DNA of 51,617 nucleotides from Eubacteriales bacterium. GTDB lineage: Bacteria; Bacillota; Clostridia; Lachnospirales; Lachnospiraceae. Shown here one piece after another: positions 16,018-26,043 of this stretch. The stretch's first letter is position 1. The number at the start of each line of letters is the position of its first letter. The notes under the pieces are model-generated. The model was not told the DNA's origin, ran no database searches, and worked only from the letters and a program-made list of their open reading frames with translations. Where the stretch lies: contig JAUNHA010000014.1 in the NCBI GenBank assembly GCA_030524135.1, forward strand, positions 1-51,617, in the 5' to 3' direction. Made by a program: the position numbers and the translations under genes.

Positions 16018-16277
16018 GTTATCTGCTGTAAATTAATAAAAAAAGGAGCCAGAAGGCAGATTAAATTGATAAATTCCTTGTAAATCACTTTTAAAAGATA
16101 TATAGTAGAGTAAATGTATACAGTCTGCATTAAAAAGGTGCGTTGTGCTGTGAATGTCTCGTCAATTTGCATATAAGCCGCTATAAAAATTGAAATACAG
16201 TTCACTCAGACACGAAGTCCATCATTTTAGATATGTCAGAAATATATTGTATACGAAATATTTTAGGAGGGACAGAG
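16018..16277 (+). promoter_or_regulatory. AT-rich promoter and leader region of the surface protein gene
   Basis: This stretch has no gene. It is clearly richer in A and T than its surroundings. TTGTAA (16078-16083), 17 bases and TATAGT (16101-16106) make a plausible promoter, which would leave a leader of about 165 bases. The leader ends with a strong ribosome site TAGGAGGG at 16264-16271 placed 6 bases before the ATG. I see no known riboswitch in it. Confidence 0.45.
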
Positions 16278-19200
16278 ATGACAAAGCTACGAATTCACAA
16301 ACAGAAATGTAATCGGATGCTGGCAGCATTGTGCGTGTGCCTCCTGACATTGAGTCCGTGCACAGAAGCACTTTATGCATTTGGATACCCGGGGGGGGGT
16401 ACTGATGTAACGGTATCTTCCACAGTATCTGATGCAGAGCGGGAGCATGATCAGGAGAACAGGGAAGAGAACAAGGCAACAGCTTCTGAAGGAACACATG
16501 TCACAGATTCTTCGGCAGAGACAGCTGAGCAGGAAAGTGATGCCACATCCTCAGTGCCGAAGCGTTACCCGGCATTTTCCCATGAGGAAGAATTTGACGG
16601 AGTGACCGTAAAGCTTTCTGCAAAACGCGGAGTGCTTCCGGAAGGAACAACGGCGGAAATCTATGAACTTGACCGTTATGAGCTTAATACAGATGAGGAT
16701 ATAGATCTGGCTTTTGATATTAAGCTCTATGACGAAGACGGCAACGATCTTGGGGACAGCTGGAAAGATCGTGGAGAGGTGACGGTGAAATTTACCGGGT
16801 CACGTATTGATGAGCTGAAAGAGAACGCTGAAACAGTTGAAATTCTGCATATTGCCGATGACGCTGAAGAGCTTGTGAAATCGGTTGATACGTCCGCGAA
16901 CGCAGGTCGCCGAACCGGACTATCTTTTGATGCAGAACATTTCTCTGTTTATGCGCTGAAGGCGGTCGCGGCGGCAGCGGAAAACGCGGAATATGATGCG
17001 GATACGAAAACGCTTACGATACATTCTGTAGAGGGAATGACGTTTTCCATGAATGGTAAAAATCCATGGCCAGACGGGTCAGATCAGGCGGTAAAAGTAG
17101 TTATTAATGTTGGGGATGAAGAACTACCGAAATATACTTTAAATTCCCAGAGAAAAGCAAAAACAATTATAATTGAACGCTGTGGCAATATAAATGAAAA
17201 TTTCTTCAATCTTTTATCTCCGGAAACGATAGAAATTGAACGCTGTGGAGATATTTTGGGAAAGATGGCTGCATCCGGAAATAGGACAGTTACTTCAATA
17301 ATAATAAACGAATGTGGGTCAATAGGAAACGGCGCATTTAGCGGATTTCGAGGCCTGGAAACCTTAAAGATTAATGATTGCGGTGATATTGGAAACAGTG
17401 CCTTTTCAAACTGTAATGCACTTGAGAACGCAGAAATTTCCCAGTGCGGTAATATTGGGAGTTCCGTATTTTCTTCAACTGCGCTGAAAGACCTTACCTT
17501 AAATTGCGGCGATATTAAAAGCGGTGCTTTTAAAAGTACACCATCCATAGAGAAACTCATTATTCAGAAAGCTGGAAACATAGAAAATCGAGCTTTTTTG
17601 GGTATGACCGGGTTAAAAACTATAGAGATTAATGAGTGTGGAAGCATAGGAAATGAAGCTTTCAGTGCATATATTTATGATACAAATACGAGTAAGCCAT
17701 GTGAAAACTTGGAAACCGTTAAAATTGGAAGCTGTGAGAGCATTGGAGATTCTGCATTTAAAGAATTGACCAAAATAAATGTTCTCGAAATCGAGTCTTG
17801 TAAAAAGATCGGTAAGATGGCATTTAATAATACTGGAAACGAAAACCGTCCAATTACTAAGTTGGAGTTAAAAAATTGTGTGATTGGCGATTCTGCATTT
17901 TATATGTCACATATTTCAGAGATCATGCTACAGGATATTCCTGAAATTGGAGACGATGCTTTTTACTGTGTGGAGGCAAGTGATGTTACCCTGTCAAATG
18001 TTGCACAAATTGGGAAAAATGCTTTTGCCGGGTCTCGAAAGCTGAACAAGCTTTCAATTGAGAACATAAAGAGTATTGAAGACAATATGTTTAAAACGTA
18101 TGATTCGGACAAAAACTATGTTACTACAATTACTCTCAAGAACATAGGATATATTGGGAATTACGCTTTTGAAAATTTCCCATTGCTCGAAAACGTTATA
18201 ATAGAGGGAGACTGTCAGTACATCGGCGCACATGCATTTACTGGATCTAAAAACCTTAAGACAATCGACATTTCTGACACAACCAGACTGGGATACAGTG
18301 ATTCGTTTGTCAAAGTAACAGATTCTAAAGATCCATCCGTTCATCCGATCTATAATCGTGTGAAAGCAATCTTGTCGGGTAAGTTTGGTCTTATCAATCC
18401 CGAGACAGAGGTTGATGCGATTTCTCCGGATGGGTGGACATCCTACCGTACCGGAATCAAGAACAGCACGGATAAGACCGGCAGTACGCAGCTTACCAAG
18501 GAAGCAAGGTGGAGTGATGCGGAAAAGACGGTTGCCGATGTACAGATCAAAGCATATTACACACTGAACCGGCAGATGGATTTCATCTTTGTCGCGGACT
18601 GCTCAAATTCCATGTCAGGCATTGGCAGCAACGATGCTATGAATTCGAATTTCTACAACATGCAGTCGAAGATGATGGATGTGACGGAGAAACTGCTGTC
18701 TGATACAAGTGAGCTGGATACCCGTGTTGCATTCGCGACCTTCGGCGAGGAAGAATCCTCTGTTTCCGATTTCTTTGTAAAAGGGGATGAGGCGAAGGCA
18801 GAGACGTACATCTGGAATGATATCGTCAATTATTATTCTAACACCAACTATAGTGTAGGTTTAGAGAAGGCATCTGAGCTTGTAAAACAAAACCGCGCAG
18901 CAGGACGCAATACGACCGTTATCTTCATATCTGACGGGCAGCCGTACTATGATGGCAAGGTTGAAAATATTCCGCCCGAATACTATGGCACAGAGCAGGC
19001 AGAAGCGATCCGCGCAGACGGCGCGAAACTGTTTGCGGTCCTGCAGCAGGTTCCTGAAGATGAGTTGGAATCTTCACAGGCAAATATGCTGAAACTGACG
19101 GCAGATGAGGGCAATATCTTCTCATCGACAGACCTGGATGGCTTCAGCCATGCAATCAACGATGCAATCGAGTACGCTTATACGAATTTCCAGCTGACAG

Positions 19201-20642
19201 ACGTAGTAGATCCTGCGTTTGAGCTCGATGAGACAAGCATTAACGTTACAGGCGGAACTGTTACCCTTGGAACGAATGCGGCGGGACTTACGACCATTAC
19301 CTGGACGTTTCATCAGAGTACGGAACCGTTTAAGGAATATATCCTTACATTCCAGGAAAAATTAAATCCGAACAGTGACGGAAGCTATCCGGATGGAAGC
19401 TTTGATACAAATGAAGGAGACGCCGTTTTTGAAGCAGACAAGGTTCCGGTCAATCAGGTAAAAACCCCTGTTCTGGAAAGAGAAAATGAGAAGAAAACAG
19501 GCGATCTTATCGTAAAGAAAACAGTCAGCGGCAACAATGCGAACAGAAATTATGCATTTACCTTCCGCATTGAAGCGGAGGAAGCAGGAACGCCCCTTTC
19601 GGGAAGCTTTGGAGATGTTACGTTTACAGACGGCGAAGGAAGCTTCACGCTGAAGGCAGGGGAGCAGGCAGCCGTTACCGGGCTTCCTGAGGGAACGTCA
19701 TACAAAGTACAGGAAACCGACGGGGTTCGTATGGGATATACGGTAACCGTTAATGGTACAAAAACAGATACTGCAGAAGGCAGCGTGGTTTCCGGTGAGA
19801 CGGCCATCGAAACCTTCAATAACCACAGAACGAGCGGCGGCTCCTCCGGCGGTGGCGGTGGCGGCGGCGTAGTGCCGGGAAAACCTTATCATCCGGAAAC
19901 GAAGGATCCACTAATTCCGGAAGGCGAGACAGCTGAATCAAGCAGTTCTCCGCATCCGGAGATCAACTCCCTGCCGATCATGGGCGTGGCAGGTCCGGCA
20001 GAAGAGATACAGGACGCTTCTGACAGCGGAGCACAGCCTCTGGAGAATAAGAGCCTTAGCGTTATTGAAGCGCTGCAGGCAAAATACACACAGAATCCGG
20101 ACCTCGGCGGCTGGCTTACCGTACCGGGTACAGGCAGCGGTTATCCCGTTATGTACTCCGCCTATAGCTGGGAATACTACCTGCATCATGATTTTAACAA
20201 GCAGAGCAGCAACGTCGGCGTACCGTTTATGGGCGAGGCTACAGAGATCGGCGGCGACAATACCCTGATCCACGGTCACAACATGAATGGCGATCTGCAG
20301 TTTGGATGGATCTGGAATTATCTCTATCCGGAATTCCGTGAAAAGCATCCGACAATCGATTTTAAGACGATCTATGATGCGGACGGACAGTACGAGGTTA
20401 TGGCAGTCTTTATCGCACCGGTCTATGCCGCGGAAGATACGAATGTATTTAAGTGGTATCAGTATGTCGGAAAGCTGAATAAAGCACAGTTTAATTATTA
20501 CGTTGAAAATGCAAAGGCGAACTCACTCTATGATACCGGTGTAACTGCGGAATACGGAGACAAGCTGATCACGCTTGAGACCTGCGCGAGCAGCACGACA
20601 AACGATCGTCTTGTGGTAGTTGCCAGAAAGAAAGCCTTGTGA
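16278..20642 (+). CDS. surface protein with LRR, vWA, Cna-like and C-terminal class B sortase domains
   Basis: A 1454-residue exported protein. Residues 1-34 are a signal peptide (basic start, hydrophobic LAALCVCLLTL, then EALYA). Residues about 290-675 are BspA-type leucine-rich repeats of about 23 residues with the recurring pattern 'CGxIGNxAF'. A von Willebrand A domain follows (about 765-970) with an intact MIDAS Asp774-x-Ser776-x-Ser778 and ISDGQP. Residues about 1075-1185 look like a Cna-B/SpaA-like stalk domain, then a Gly-Ser linker. The last 195 residues are a class B sortase: His1334 (IHGHNM), Cys1436 (LETCAS) and Arg1444 (NDRLVVVA). There is no C-terminal anchor. A G9 tract at codons 38-41 may switch it on and off. 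An adhesin joined to its own transpeptidase is unusual; the bound ligand is unknown. Confidence 0.88.
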   Translation: MTKLRIHKQKCNRMLAALCVCLLTLSPCTEALYAFGYPGGGTDVTVSSTVSDAEREHDQENREENKATASEGTHVTDSSAETAEQESDATSSVPKRYPAFSHEEEFDGVTVKLSAKRGVLPEGTTAEIYELDRYELNTDEDIDLAFDIKLYDEDGNDLGDSWKDRGEVTVKFTGSRIDELKENAETVEILHIADDAEELVKSVDTSANAGRRTGLSFDAEHFSVYALKAVAAAAENAEYDADTKTLTIHSVEGMTFSMNGKNPWPDGSDQAVKVVINVGDEELPKYTLNSQRKAKTIIIERCGNINENFFNLLSPETIEIERCGDILGKMAASGNRTVTSIIINECGSIGNGAFSGFRGLETLKINDCGDIGNSAFSNCNALENAEISQCGNIGSSVFSSTALKDLTLNCGDIKSGAFKSTPSIEKLIIQKAGNIENRAFLGMTGLKTIEINECGSIGNEAFSAYIYDTNTSKPCENLETVKIGSCESIGDSAFKELTKINVLEIESCKKIGKMAFNNTGNENRPITKLELKNCVIGDSAFYMSHISEIMLQDIPEIGDDAFYCVEASDVTLSNVAQIGKNAFAGSRKLNKLSIENIKSIEDNMFKTYDSDKNYVTTITLKNIGYIGNYAFENFPLLENVIIEGDCQYIGAHAFTGSKNLKTIDISDTTRLGYSDSFVKVTDSKDPSVHPIYNRVKAILSGKFGLINPETEVDAISPDGWTSYRTGIKNSTDKTGSTQLTKEARWSDAEKTVADVQIKAYYTLNRQMDFIFVADCSNSMSGIGSNDAMNSNFYNMQSKMMDVTEKLLSDTSELDTRVAFATFGEEESSVSDFFVKGDEAKAETYIWNDIVNYYSNTNYSVGLEKASELVKQNRAAGRNTTVIFISDGQPYYDGKVENIPPEYYGTEQAEAIRADGAKLFAVLQQVPEDELESSQANMLKLTADEGNIFSSTDLDGFSHAINDAIEYAYTNFQLTDVVDPAFELDETSINVTGGTVTLGTNAAGLTTITWTFHQSTEPFKEYILTFQEKLNPNSDGSYPDGSFDTNEGDAVFEADKVPVNQVKTPVLERENEKKTGDLIVKKTVSGNNANRNYAFTFRIEAEEAGTPLSGSFGDVTFTDGEGSFTLKAGEQAAVTGLPEGTSYKVQETDGVRMGYTVTVNGTKTDTAEGSVVSGETAIETFNNHRTSGGSSGGGGGGGVVPGKPYHPETKDPLIPEGETAESSSSPHPEINSLPIMGVAGPAEEIQDASDSGAQPLENKSLSVIEALQAKYTQNPDLGGWLTVPGTGSGYPVMYSAYSWEYYLHHDFNKQSSNVGVPFMGEATEIGGDNTLIHGHNMNGDLQFGWIWNYLYPEFREKHPTIDFKTIYDADGQYEVMAVFIAPVYAAEDTNVFKWYQYVGKLNKAQFNYYVENAKANSLYDTGVTAEYGDKLITLETCASSTTNDRLVVVARKKAL
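16391..16399 (+). repeat. run of nine G, candidate phase-variation tract
   Basis: Nine G residues lie 113 bases into the coding sequence, just behind the signal peptide, encoding Pro-Gly-Gly-Gly (38-41). With ten G the frame reads TAC TGA; with eight it reads GTA CTG ATG TAA. Both end at once. Such a tract is what slipped-strand mispairing switches look like. Confidence 0.75.
19834..19874 (+). repeat. Gly-rich linker coded by GGC/GGT repeats
   Basis: A run of GGC and GGT codons interrupted by two serine codons encodes a flexible Gly-Ser linker between the Cna-like domain and the region leading to the sortase domain. In-frame length change by triplets would be tolerated. Confidence 0.5.
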
Positions 20643-23987: not shown

Positions 23988-25244
23988 TTACTGAAAAACA
24001 GCATTTGCAGTATCAATGGGCTGCTCACAGCGGTTATCAATATCCGTTAAATTGTGAGTAAAGACACTGTCGCTGAAATCAAGGCGGACATCCGTGGGGA
24101 CATTCTCCAGAAGGACTGCAGTTTCATTGTTTGTAAATTCATTTTCCGTAAAACGCTCATCGCTCGGAGAACCGTCTACCGCATTAAAGTGAAGACCGGT
24201 TATGTTATTTTCAAATACACAGTTCGTTGCGTTGACCCAGGTTGCTCCGGTGCCGAATGCAAGGATGCCTGTTTTCAGGTTCAGGAAGCGGCAGCCCTTT
24301 GCCCATGCCCGGTTGGAAACGGAAAGTCCAATTCCGCTGCCGTCTCCGATGAAATCAATGTCATTGAAATAGGTGATCCAGGTTCGTTTATAAAACGGAC
24401 GCATCTGAATGCCTGCGGTGAAGACAGGACGCTGCCCGTCTTTTTCAAGACCATAGAAATTAAACGGCCGGTCATGGATGACGATCGTATCCGTATAGGT
24501 AACAGGCGGAAGATAGATGTTTACGATATCGTCGATATCACGTTCTTCCGCCAGCTTGTCAATAAACGCCTGAAGTGCGGCGGCATCAGACAGATCCGCG
24601 TTTTCAGAGCTGTAATTGAAAATTGGACGGAAGGTGATGTAAAAATTCATGCGAAGCCGGATAATATCTCCGTTTTCCATCTCGAGAGTCCAGATGATCT
24701 GCGACTGTTCAGGACTTTGACGGAAAAAATCGATCAGACTGATCTGTGCCGCCTCAGGATAGCCGTCATTCTGCAATGGATCGCTGCAGTTGATCGGTGT
24801 TTCGCTTTCCGGCTGATCGATGCGGACACTTGAGCGCTTTACCTTCTTCATAAAGATGCCGGATGCATCCGCGCCGGTATCCTTATGATTGATATAGAGC
24901 CGCACCGGAAACCGGTAGCGTTCCTCATCCCCATAGGATTGACGGGTTTCGCTCATGACCTGATAACGGTCATTGCTTACATTCATGATGACCTGATAGG
25001 TTCCATCGCTGTCGGTATAGGTGACTTCGCTCATGGAATCATAGGTTTTCGGGCGCGTGTAAATGTAAATACAGATGCCGGCGAGCAAAATAAGAAGGCA
25101 GAAGAGCAGGGCGCGGCGGATTTTGACCGGAATGCGCTTCGGCGGTTTAAGCTCGCTGCGTGAAGAGACTGGTTTGGCACAATGCGGGCAGAAGGATGCT
25201 TCCTTTGGAAGCGGATTGCCGCAGTGCGGACATTTATGGTCCAT
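23988..25244 (-). CDS. zinc-ribbon membrane protein with extracellular beta-helix domain
   Basis: A 418-residue protein with one membrane helix. Residues 4-25 are a zinc ribbon with two CxxC pairs (CPHCG and CPHCA). A basic linker leads to the helix at about 44-62 (LLFCLLILLAGICIYIY). Outside, residues 70-220 are a beta-rich domain, and from about 225 on comes a right-handed parallel beta-helix of the pectate-lyase/NosD type (FNFYGLEKDG, then GIGLSVSNRAWAKGC, and NCVFENNITGLHFN), normally for binding carbohydrates or acting as a spacer. It lies 88 bases downstream of the kinase gene on the same strand and may be its membrane partner. Ligand unknown. Confidence 0.75.
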   Translation of the reverse strand: MDHKCPHCGNPLPKEASFCPHCAKPVSSRSELKPPKRIPVKIRRALLFCLLILLAGICIYIYTRPKTYDSMSEVTYTDSDGTYQVIMNVSNDRYQVMSETRQSYGDEERYRFPVRLYINHKDTGADASGIFMKKVKRSSVRIDQPESETPINCSDPLQNDGYPEAAQISLIDFFRQSPEQSQIIWTLEMENGDIIRLRMNFYITFRPIFNYSSENADLSDAAALQAFIDKLAEERDIDDIVNIYLPPVTYTDTIVIHDRPFNFYGLEKDGQRPVFTAGIQMRPFYKRTWITYFNDIDFIGDGSGIGLSVSNRAWAKGCRFLNLKTGILAFGTGATWVNATNCVFENNITGLHFNAVDGSPSDERFTENEFTNNETAVLLENVPTDVRLDFSDSVFTHNLTDIDNRCEQPIDTANAVFQ

Positions 25245-25332
25245 ATAAAACTCCTTAAACTAGTTTTTGATTTCGGTCTTTTCAGAGCTCATTTTGAATT
25301 CATTCGGATTTATGCAGAATTCAGCCTGAAGA

Positions 25333-26043
25333 TCAGAGTTCGTCCAGAAGATGAAGTACGGTTTTATAGCGCTTTGCCGGATTGACCTGCGTACAGCGGG
25401 TGACAATGCGGCCAAACCGGCCGTCGGCAAGCCTTCGTGACGGGTGTTCTCCGGTAAGCATGACGTTGATAACGATCCCGAGCGCGTAGATATCAGAACG
25501 GGCATCAGACTGGGAGAGGCCGTACTGCTCCGGAGCGGCATAGCCGGTGGTCCCGAGAATCTGTGTATCGCCGCCGCAGTCCGGTTTATGCAGTCTGGCA
25601 GCGTCAAAATCAATAAGTACGGCATCGGAGCCGCGCAAAATGATATTTTCCGGCTTCACATCGCGGTGTACGGCGCCGGCCTGGTGCAGGCCCCACAGTC
25701 CGCTGCACAAGCCTCTTACGATCTGACGGGTCTCCTCCTGCGTAAACAAAGCGCCTTTCAGCATATCCCCCATATTGTCGCCGCGGATATATTCCTCGAG
25801 AACGAGATTCTGATCTCCATCCGCCGCTACCTCGTAGATCTCGGGAAGATTTCTGCAGGTGCAGTTCAAAAGCCTGCGGCAGACTTCCGCGTTTCCGCAA
25901 AAAGAGCGCAGAACAAATTTTTTCTCCGAGGCGCGGTGCTTTATCAGCTCCACGGTTCCCCGGTCACTTTTTTTCATCAGCCGTATCGGCTCAAATTCTG
26001 TTTGAAGCGCTTCTTTCAGCCATGTATAATAAATGAAGATCAC
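25333..26043 (-). CDS. divergent Hanks-type Ser/Thr kinase without membrane segment
   Basis: A 236-residue protein that is just a kinase domain. The C-lobe is well kept: HRDVKPEN with catalytic Asp128, IDFDAA with metal-binding Asp145 in place where DFG is usual, GYAAPEQ, and DARSDIYALG. The N-lobe is odd: the Gly-rich loop is reduced to DRGTVE and the ATP-binding Lys of VAIK is replaced by Arg46 (FVLRSF). It may be weakly active or a pseudokinase. It lacks the TM and PASTA parts of PknB. The start is uncertain: GTG at 26043 is almost touching its GAGG site, while the in-frame ATT at 26034 would have better spacing. Divergent from the HTH gene. Confidence 0.78.
   Translation of the reverse strand: MIFIYYTWLKEALQTEFEPIRLMKKSDRGTVELIKHRASEKKFVLRSFCGNAEVCRRLLNCTCRNLPEIYEVAADGDQNLVLEEYIRGDNMGDMLKGALFTQEETRQIVRGLCSGLWGLHQAGAVHRDVKPENIILRGSDAVLIDFDAARLHKPDCGGDTQILGTTGYAAPEQYGLSQSDARSDIYALGIVINVMLTGEHPSRRLADGRFGRIVTRCTQVNPAKRYKTVLHLLDEL

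Follow-up and report, generated by a model that had tools for sequence, protein, structure and literature searches.

A single reading frame in the 51,617-nucleotide stretch of DNA analysed here (the window) joins an adhesin to a sortase, and this fusion is confirmed as real. The encoded surface protein of a gut bacterium appears to hold a cutting signal and a wall-fastening enzyme in one chain, and it may fasten itself. In the reading that we favour, to which we assign a probability of about 0.56, the protein is a self-sorting adhesin, whose sortase would cut its own or a neighbouring chain between Met and Gly of an LPxMG motif, hand the adhesin over to peptidoglycan, and then be released. Several lines of evidence support this reading: the presence of a motif ahead of the sortase in all 19 fused proteins, as against 1 of 70 stand-alone sortases, the invariance of LPxMG and its spacing from the catalytic Cys, the replacement of a substrate and a separate sortase by one fused gene within an operon, the intact catalytic triad and the purifying selection on the sortase, the existence of VPxTG fusions with the same order, the retention of the C-terminal module (93% DNA identity) where the head has changed, the separate sortases that join the fused clade, and the finding that LPxMG occurs in this setting only in the two fusions of the window's genome.

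Domain order of the fusion protein

The fusion gene (16278-20642, + strand) is open from ATG to stop and encodes 1454 amino acids. A second in-frame ATG is located upstream at 16233, and the ribosome binding site AGGAGG, read directly from the sequence at 16265-16270 (+), serves the ATG at 16278. The protein begins with a putative signal peptide region (16278-16376, +) containing its only hydrophobic segment, at residue 14 (19-residue hydropathy, threshold 1.6), and continues with six stretches of BspA-type leucine-rich repeats (LRR_5, PF13306, E = 7e-60, above the curated Pfam cut-offs), the best of which covers residues 556-672 (17943-18293, +). The vWA domain (PF00092, E = 3.2e-9; residues 768-955, 18579-19142, +) contains DCSNS at 774 and ISDGQ at 884, which fit a MIDAS motif. 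It is followed by a CnaB-like stalk (DUF7601, PF24547, E = 1.6e-19; residues 1075-1184, 19500-19829, +), which matches pilus ancillary protein 1 both in NCBIfam, there below the cut-off, and in the PDB. A Ser/Gly-rich linker (19833-19868, +) leads to LPIMG, a putative in-chain sorting motif (residues 1232-1236, 19971-19985, +), which lies 47 residues ahead of the sortase core and is connected to it by a tether of 42 residues (19986-20111, +). The open frame and the Pfam order LRR_5-VWA-DUF7601-Sortase, with each of the four domains scoring above its curated cut-off, confirm the composition given in an earlier sequence-only reading, namely BspA-type repeats, vWA, stalk, Gly linker, and sortase in a single frame; LPIMG had been overlooked there.

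The sortase domain comprises residues 1279-1454 (20112-20639, +). Its match to PF04203 (residues 1281-1451, E = 6.1e-9, 36.1 bits versus a cut-off of 26.6) and the top PDB sequence matches, which fall at the C-terminus and are sortase B structures (5jcv with 2.7e-17, 5b23, and 1ng5), bear out the proposed membership in class B at the level of a class-B-type enzyme. The score against the NCBIfam SrtB equivalog TIGR03064 (84.9 bits) is below the cut-off of 153.75, and the domain is therefore named a class-B-type, SrtB-like sortase and not an equivalog. The catalytic residues His1334 (20277-20279, +), Cys1436 (20583-20585, +), and Arg1444 (20607-20609, +) are found at the positions previously claimed and are conserved in all 89 sortases counted.

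By the same hydropathy criterion (19 residues, threshold 1.6), no membrane anchor is present between stalk and sortase and no hydrophobic segment occurs after residue 14, in agreement with the claim that a C-terminal membrane anchor is missing; a C-terminal hydrophobic segment with positive tail, as in PF00746, is likewise absent from the protein. The earlier view that a transpeptidase occupies the place where a sorting signal is expected holds for the enzyme, which is indeed at the C-terminus, but a sorting-type motif is nevertheless present upstream of it. The fourth position of LPIMG is Met and thus deviates from the Thr of LPXTG, as it does in all 11 fusions of this kind.

Relatives, variable heads, and sortase phylogeny

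The window's genome (G000; 2.23 Mb, 89 contigs, 92% complete) harbours three sortase loci detectable by PF04203: the window fusion, a second fusion on contig C40 (open frame of 1724 amino acids), and a stand-alone sortase on contig C10. With this paralogue and with relatives in other genomes, the idea that the fusion is unique to the window contig was rejected. A search of the genus with the C-terminal 350 residues matched 10 of 25 genomes, stand-alone sortases included, and yielded nine intact module-bearing fusions from four genomes, two in G000, four in G016, two in G019, and one in G023. An alignment of the module (A1) was used for a wider scan of a collection of 84,980 species, each represented by a single genome, which was seeded by two short peptide patterns and missed relatives lacking both. 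The best 80 of 121 relatives represented 79 distinct loci: seven intact fusions (L088-L094), five of them at loci already known, one broken copy (L087, which coincides with L084), and 71 loci with frames of 190-530 amino acids and without LPxMG, which were read as stand-alone sortases, including four that run off their contig (L139, L157, L159, and L161). L088 and L090 were new and raised the number of intact fusions to 11. The contig of L088, labelled Blautia, shares 98% DNA identity with G016 over 2.1 kb and is probably derived from a close relative of that species. In the plasmid collection, 23 and 28 records matched, all with less than 60% identity.

Two relatives, L082 of G016 (1538 amino acids) and L090 (labelled 'Candidatus Enterocloster faecavium', 1570 amino acids), are 46-49% identical to the window protein over about 1360-1375 residues, and the Pfam search for the same architecture, which had been suggested as a check, recovered the order LRR-vWA-DUF7601-sortase in both, the vWA domain of L082 (L082a) scoring just under the Pfam cut-off. 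An assembly join or a frameshift uniting two genes, previously named as a finding that would overturn the fusion, might be suspected in a fragmented assembly of 89 contigs in which two related copies are broken; it is refuted by the full-length proteins of the same order in two other genomes, and with purifying selection acting across the sortase such an artefact has practically no chance of being the explanation. Loss of the Cys in homologues, the other such finding, was not encountered, as this residue is kept. The purifying selection is indicated by dN/dS values of 0.05-0.14 for the sortase domain in five of eight pairs, those in which dS was unsaturated. In the broken copies of G015 (L084:3386-4093) and G001 (L085:6915-7280), the linker with the motif is missing and only parts of the sortase are open.

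The heads of the other fusions differ: LRR-CnaB-DUF7601 is found in L004, SpaA-CnaB in L033c, L036, and L038 (the sortase of L036 being slightly below the PF04203 cut-off with 25.5 versus 26.6 bits), a double DUF7601 in L082b, L035, and L088, and no recognised domain in L034. In L088 and L094 (G016), which represent the same locus, the two upstream genes are 98% identical at the DNA level and the heads give no blastn match to each other; identity resumes at the Gly linker and amounts to 93% up to a point beyond the stop codon. The comparison of L088 with L094 and L082 suggests that adhesin heads have been swapped by recombination at the linker. It is the C-terminal module that stays constant among the LPxMG fusions. 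From the linker onward, the L088 module is 88-89% identical in DNA to two other copies of G016.

A quick tree was built from 90 sortase domains, and several of its branches are long. It contained 70 stand-alone sortases, since four of the 71 (L139, L155, L158, and L161; truncated by a contig end, irregular, or with X) were left out and three from the G genomes were added. The LPxMG fusions and the broken copy L084 form one clade (SH-aLRT 100), with which the separate enzymes from G021 and G009, and also L134, group in a set of 15 rows (support 97). Eight further fusions, in which VPxTG and hydrophobic segments precede the sortase, were found. One of them, L206 of G052 (L206:2746-7668), is a thioester/SpaA protein of 1640 amino acids, the only one of its kind scanned with Pfam, and ends with VPQTGDD, a hydrophobic segment, KKGK, a second hydrophobic segment, and the sortase. 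A search of 397 genomes of the family with the L206 end revealed eight such places in seven genomes with frames of 1644-1670 amino acids; the seven places that were read (from the set of L206 and L215-L221) each contain VP[QR]TGDD and the sortase Cys, and for two of the seven genomes, G059 and G305, a single contig is recorded. Thioester/SpaA-type adhesins with VPxTG, a membrane hairpin, and a C-terminal sortase apparently constitute a conserved family of their own. Outside G000, the only frame of more than 700 amino acids among the matches listed for 295 sampled genomes of the order was that of G052. The thioester-adhesin fusions form a different clade elsewhere in the tree (support 99), and a test that forced the 18 fused rows (11 LPxMG and seven thioester-adhesin) into a single clade gave a p-AU of 0.027, by which a common origin is mildly rejected, with long branches in play.

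The eighth protein, L205 (G016 C1, 932-13912), is a SpaA-repeat giant of 4326 amino acids, and its genome also encodes four LPxMG fusions. Towards its end, VPKTGD is followed by a hydrophobic stretch of shorter length and a run of basic residues, after which come more hydrophobic segments and the sortase, again of class B type. Ten regions were selected in a search for long sortase frames; among the loci from these (L207-L214), L207-L210 and L213 (429-646 amino acids) were rejected as adhesin fusions, since they resemble sortases whose N-terminal parts are of another kind, and no frame above 400 amino acids fitting the sortase pattern was found in L211, L212, and L214. By eye, L207:4804-6663 and L210:988-2700 show odd N-terminal parts (transporter-like, cytosolic-looking) before a membrane segment.

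The active sites were compared in 89 sortases (12 of the LPxMG clade including one broken copy, seven thioester-adhesin fusions, and 70 stand-alone enzymes; L205 was left out). Glu1434 (20577-20579, +), next to the catalytic Cys, is confined to the LPxMG clade (12/12), the other 77 having Ser or Thr at this position, and the giant L205 has a Cys there by eye. His1332 is present in 12 of 12 members of the clade, whereas Tyr predominates among the others (68/77) and His occurs in two. These changes fit a specificity altered towards Met, with one event behind them.

The in-chain motif and the operon

LP[IVT]MG occurs in all 11 intact fusions, 46-51 residues ahead of the sortase core, a count that does not stand for 11 independent events as the LPxMG fusions are one clade. 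In the alignments, LP-x-MG is invariant within a linker that otherwise varies between two subgroups, and the codons for L, P, and G differ synonymously among the fusions. The spacing from LPxMG to the catalytic Cys is 203-208 residues in eight of nine proteins measured; in the ninth, the distance was taken from an LPFMG near the N-terminus that probably stems from a false start, and its module is in register when aligned with the others. When [LVI]Px[TM]G was counted within at most 260 residues before the core, three cores (L136, L138, and L159) being set by length only, the motif was present in 19 of 19 fused proteins (11 LPxMG, seven thioester-adhesin, and the giant) versus 1 of 70 stand-alone sortases, for which the Fisher p of 1.8e-18 is merely descriptive because the rows are related. 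The sole positive stand-alone enzyme was L121, with IPVTG 36 residues before the core. An earlier, narrower count (13/19 versus 0/47) had used a shorter stretch and dropped 23 stand-alone rows without a placed core, and a wider pattern adds the stand-alone sortases L147 (VPESG) and L164 (IPDTG), neither of which is positive in the present count.

In G000, LPxMG gave 23 matches at the DNA level (11 for the control pattern), 14 of which read L-P-x-M-G in frame. The motif precedes a sortase only in the two fusions, and none of the other 12 in-frame occurrences is itself a terminal sorting signal as judged by frame length, stop distance, and hydropathy. The pattern xPxTGD had seven matches (control four), one of them a proper signal, IPYTGD followed by a hydrophobic segment and KRR; its frame spans 544 codons or more and lies on C10, the contig of the stand-alone SrtB. 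A search for PF00746 gave no hit over the cut-off in G000; as it also overlooked the clear IPYTGD signal on C10, its negative result was not used. The stand-alone SrtB on C10 (L005:1487-3582) lies beside a Shp-type heme-binding protein, with the IPYTGD protein about 13 kb away.

An unfused counterpart was found in G021 (L083), where the operon starts with genes for an O-antigen-ligase-like protein (459 amino acids) and an amidase (244 amino acids) and ends with those for a pilin-like protein of 522 amino acids, which carries two DUF7601 domains and VPKTGD followed by a hydrophobic segment and KR, and for a separate SrtB of 271 amino acids. At three related loci, in G016 (L094), in G019 (L093), and on the contig of L088, counterparts of the first two genes (57-63% and 69-76% identity to those of G021) are followed by one fused gene ending in LPVMGD and, further on, SrtB. 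The 522-amino acid protein shares 39-41% identity with two of the three fusions over their bodies, and matches the third over only 75 N-terminal residues (29%). A weaker amidase match (42%) was found in G013. In the 5.9 kb or so downstream of the fusion in G016 (L034), no separate sortase was found; past the fusion, only about 770 bases remain on the contig of L093 and about 216 on that of L088, so that a sortase further on is possible there. This comparison indicates that a normal substrate and a separate sortase have been replaced by one fused gene in the same operon.

Proposed self-sorting, alternatives, and known systems

After export, the sortase Cys would attack the Met1235-Gly1236 bond of LPIMG, either within the same chain or on a neighbouring copy, and form a thioester with the C-terminus of the adhesin. 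A peptidoglycan amine, probably that of diaminopimelate by analogy to C. difficile as described in PMC4155245, would then take over the adhesin. The anchor-free sortase would thereby be set free, and the module would stand in for the usual sorting signal at the C-terminus as well as for a separate sortase in the membrane. An extended tether of 42 residues can span over 100 angstroms, which exceeds the width of a sortase domain; judged by tether length only, it is plausible that LPxMG reaches its own active site in cis. Attachment in cis or to a neighbouring copy had been proposed in the sequence-only reading, and the conserved LPxMG, the VPxTG fusions, and the operon replacement lend support to this proposal and sharpen it; none of the findings concerned the other suggestion made there, a joining of host and bacterial amines. 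Caution is suggested by the stand-alone L121 with IPVTG ahead of its core, by the lack of a membrane anchor, due to which the protein could diffuse away before being anchored, and by the Met at the cut site, which is unusual and counts against cleavage of LPxMG. In a modelled complex of SrtB from C. difficile, a hydrogen bond links the hydroxyl of the Thr at the cut position to the catalytic Arg (PMC5118464), and PMC4155245 reports that LPETG is not cleaved by this enzyme. A more specific version, which we put forward tentatively and hold to be doubtful, is a single-use sortase: an anchor-free enzyme with a private LPxMG and matching residues (His1332 and Glu1434) would join the adhesin to the wall in one turn and be discarded, apart from the xPxTG sortase, and such fusions would have arisen at least twice in gut Lachnospiraceae.

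The same module could act in trans on neighbouring copies and build a fibre, in which the acyl adhesin is passed to a stalk lysine, a pilin-like polymer grows, and the sortase domains are shed. The resemblance of the DUF7601 stalk to pilus ancillary protein 1 and the several fused paralogues per genome (four LPxMG fusions in G016, two each in G000 and G019) speak for this model, which we nevertheless regard as unlikely, given heads that are long and diverse, unlike a major pilin. Still less probable is that the sortase mainly serves other surface proteins, with the adhesin as its holder and LPxMG as a linker feature or release site: the intact triad and the one ordinary sorting signal of G000, IPYTGD, would suit such a role, but this signal shares contig C10 with the stand-alone SrtB, no other LPxMG sorting signal was found in the 92% complete genome, and the motif precedes the sortase in every fused protein. 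Sortases can hydrolyse their substrates where an amine is absent, and the LPxMG fusions have no later hydrophobic segment, so the module might also cut the chain by hydrolysis and shed the adhesin in a timed manner without any anchoring role. We consider this improbable, as the unfused relative in the same operon carries an ordinary anchoring signal and the thioester-adhesin fusions retain motif, hydrophobic segment, and basic residues.

The proposed self-sorting adhesin combines features of several known systems. C. difficile SrtB acts on (S/P)PXTG and cleaves after Thr, and its SPKTGDN peptide context, as given in PMC4155245 and PMC5118464, resembles the LPVMGD found here. Sortase class (by sequence and PDB matches), His-Cys-Arg triad, and motif type xPx(T/M)G are shared with this enzyme; the Met in the motif and the lack of a visible membrane anchor of the sortase are not, and clostridial class B sortases are stand-alone membrane enzymes acting on separate proteins, whereas here enzyme and motif are in one chain. 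Head, CnaB-like stalk, Gly/Pro linker, and xPx(T/M)G recur in adhesins that sortases anchor in the ordinary way and in pilus ancillary proteins (CnaB/SpaA/vWA/TED), which, however, end with a hydrophobic segment and a positive tail (PF00746) in place of a sortase. Engineered self-cleaving sortase fusions (the method of Mao; BISOP) also unite sortase and motif in one chain, from which the sortase cleaves itself off; according to PMC2901362, they are man-made and based on SrtA located N-terminal of the cargo. The present fusions are natural and of the class B type and carry the cargo on the N-terminal side, so that the cargo would be the acyl donor. No natural adhesin-sortase fusion was found as a precedent in a literature search that lay mostly outside subscription journals.

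The missing anchors of many adhesins are named as an open question in PMC8286594. The module, whose motif lies some 220 residues from the end of the protein, would be missed by searches for ordinary terminal signals, and it offers a concrete candidate anchor. If the self-sorting reading is true, sorting would proceed without a membrane-held enzyme, the fusion would be the natural counterpart to engineered self-cleaving sortases, and its enzyme might be a Met-accepting sortase useful for protein ligation. Elsewhere in the window, a gene for a zinc-ribbon/beta-helix protein (23988-26043, - strand) adjoins a Ser/Thr kinase-like gene.
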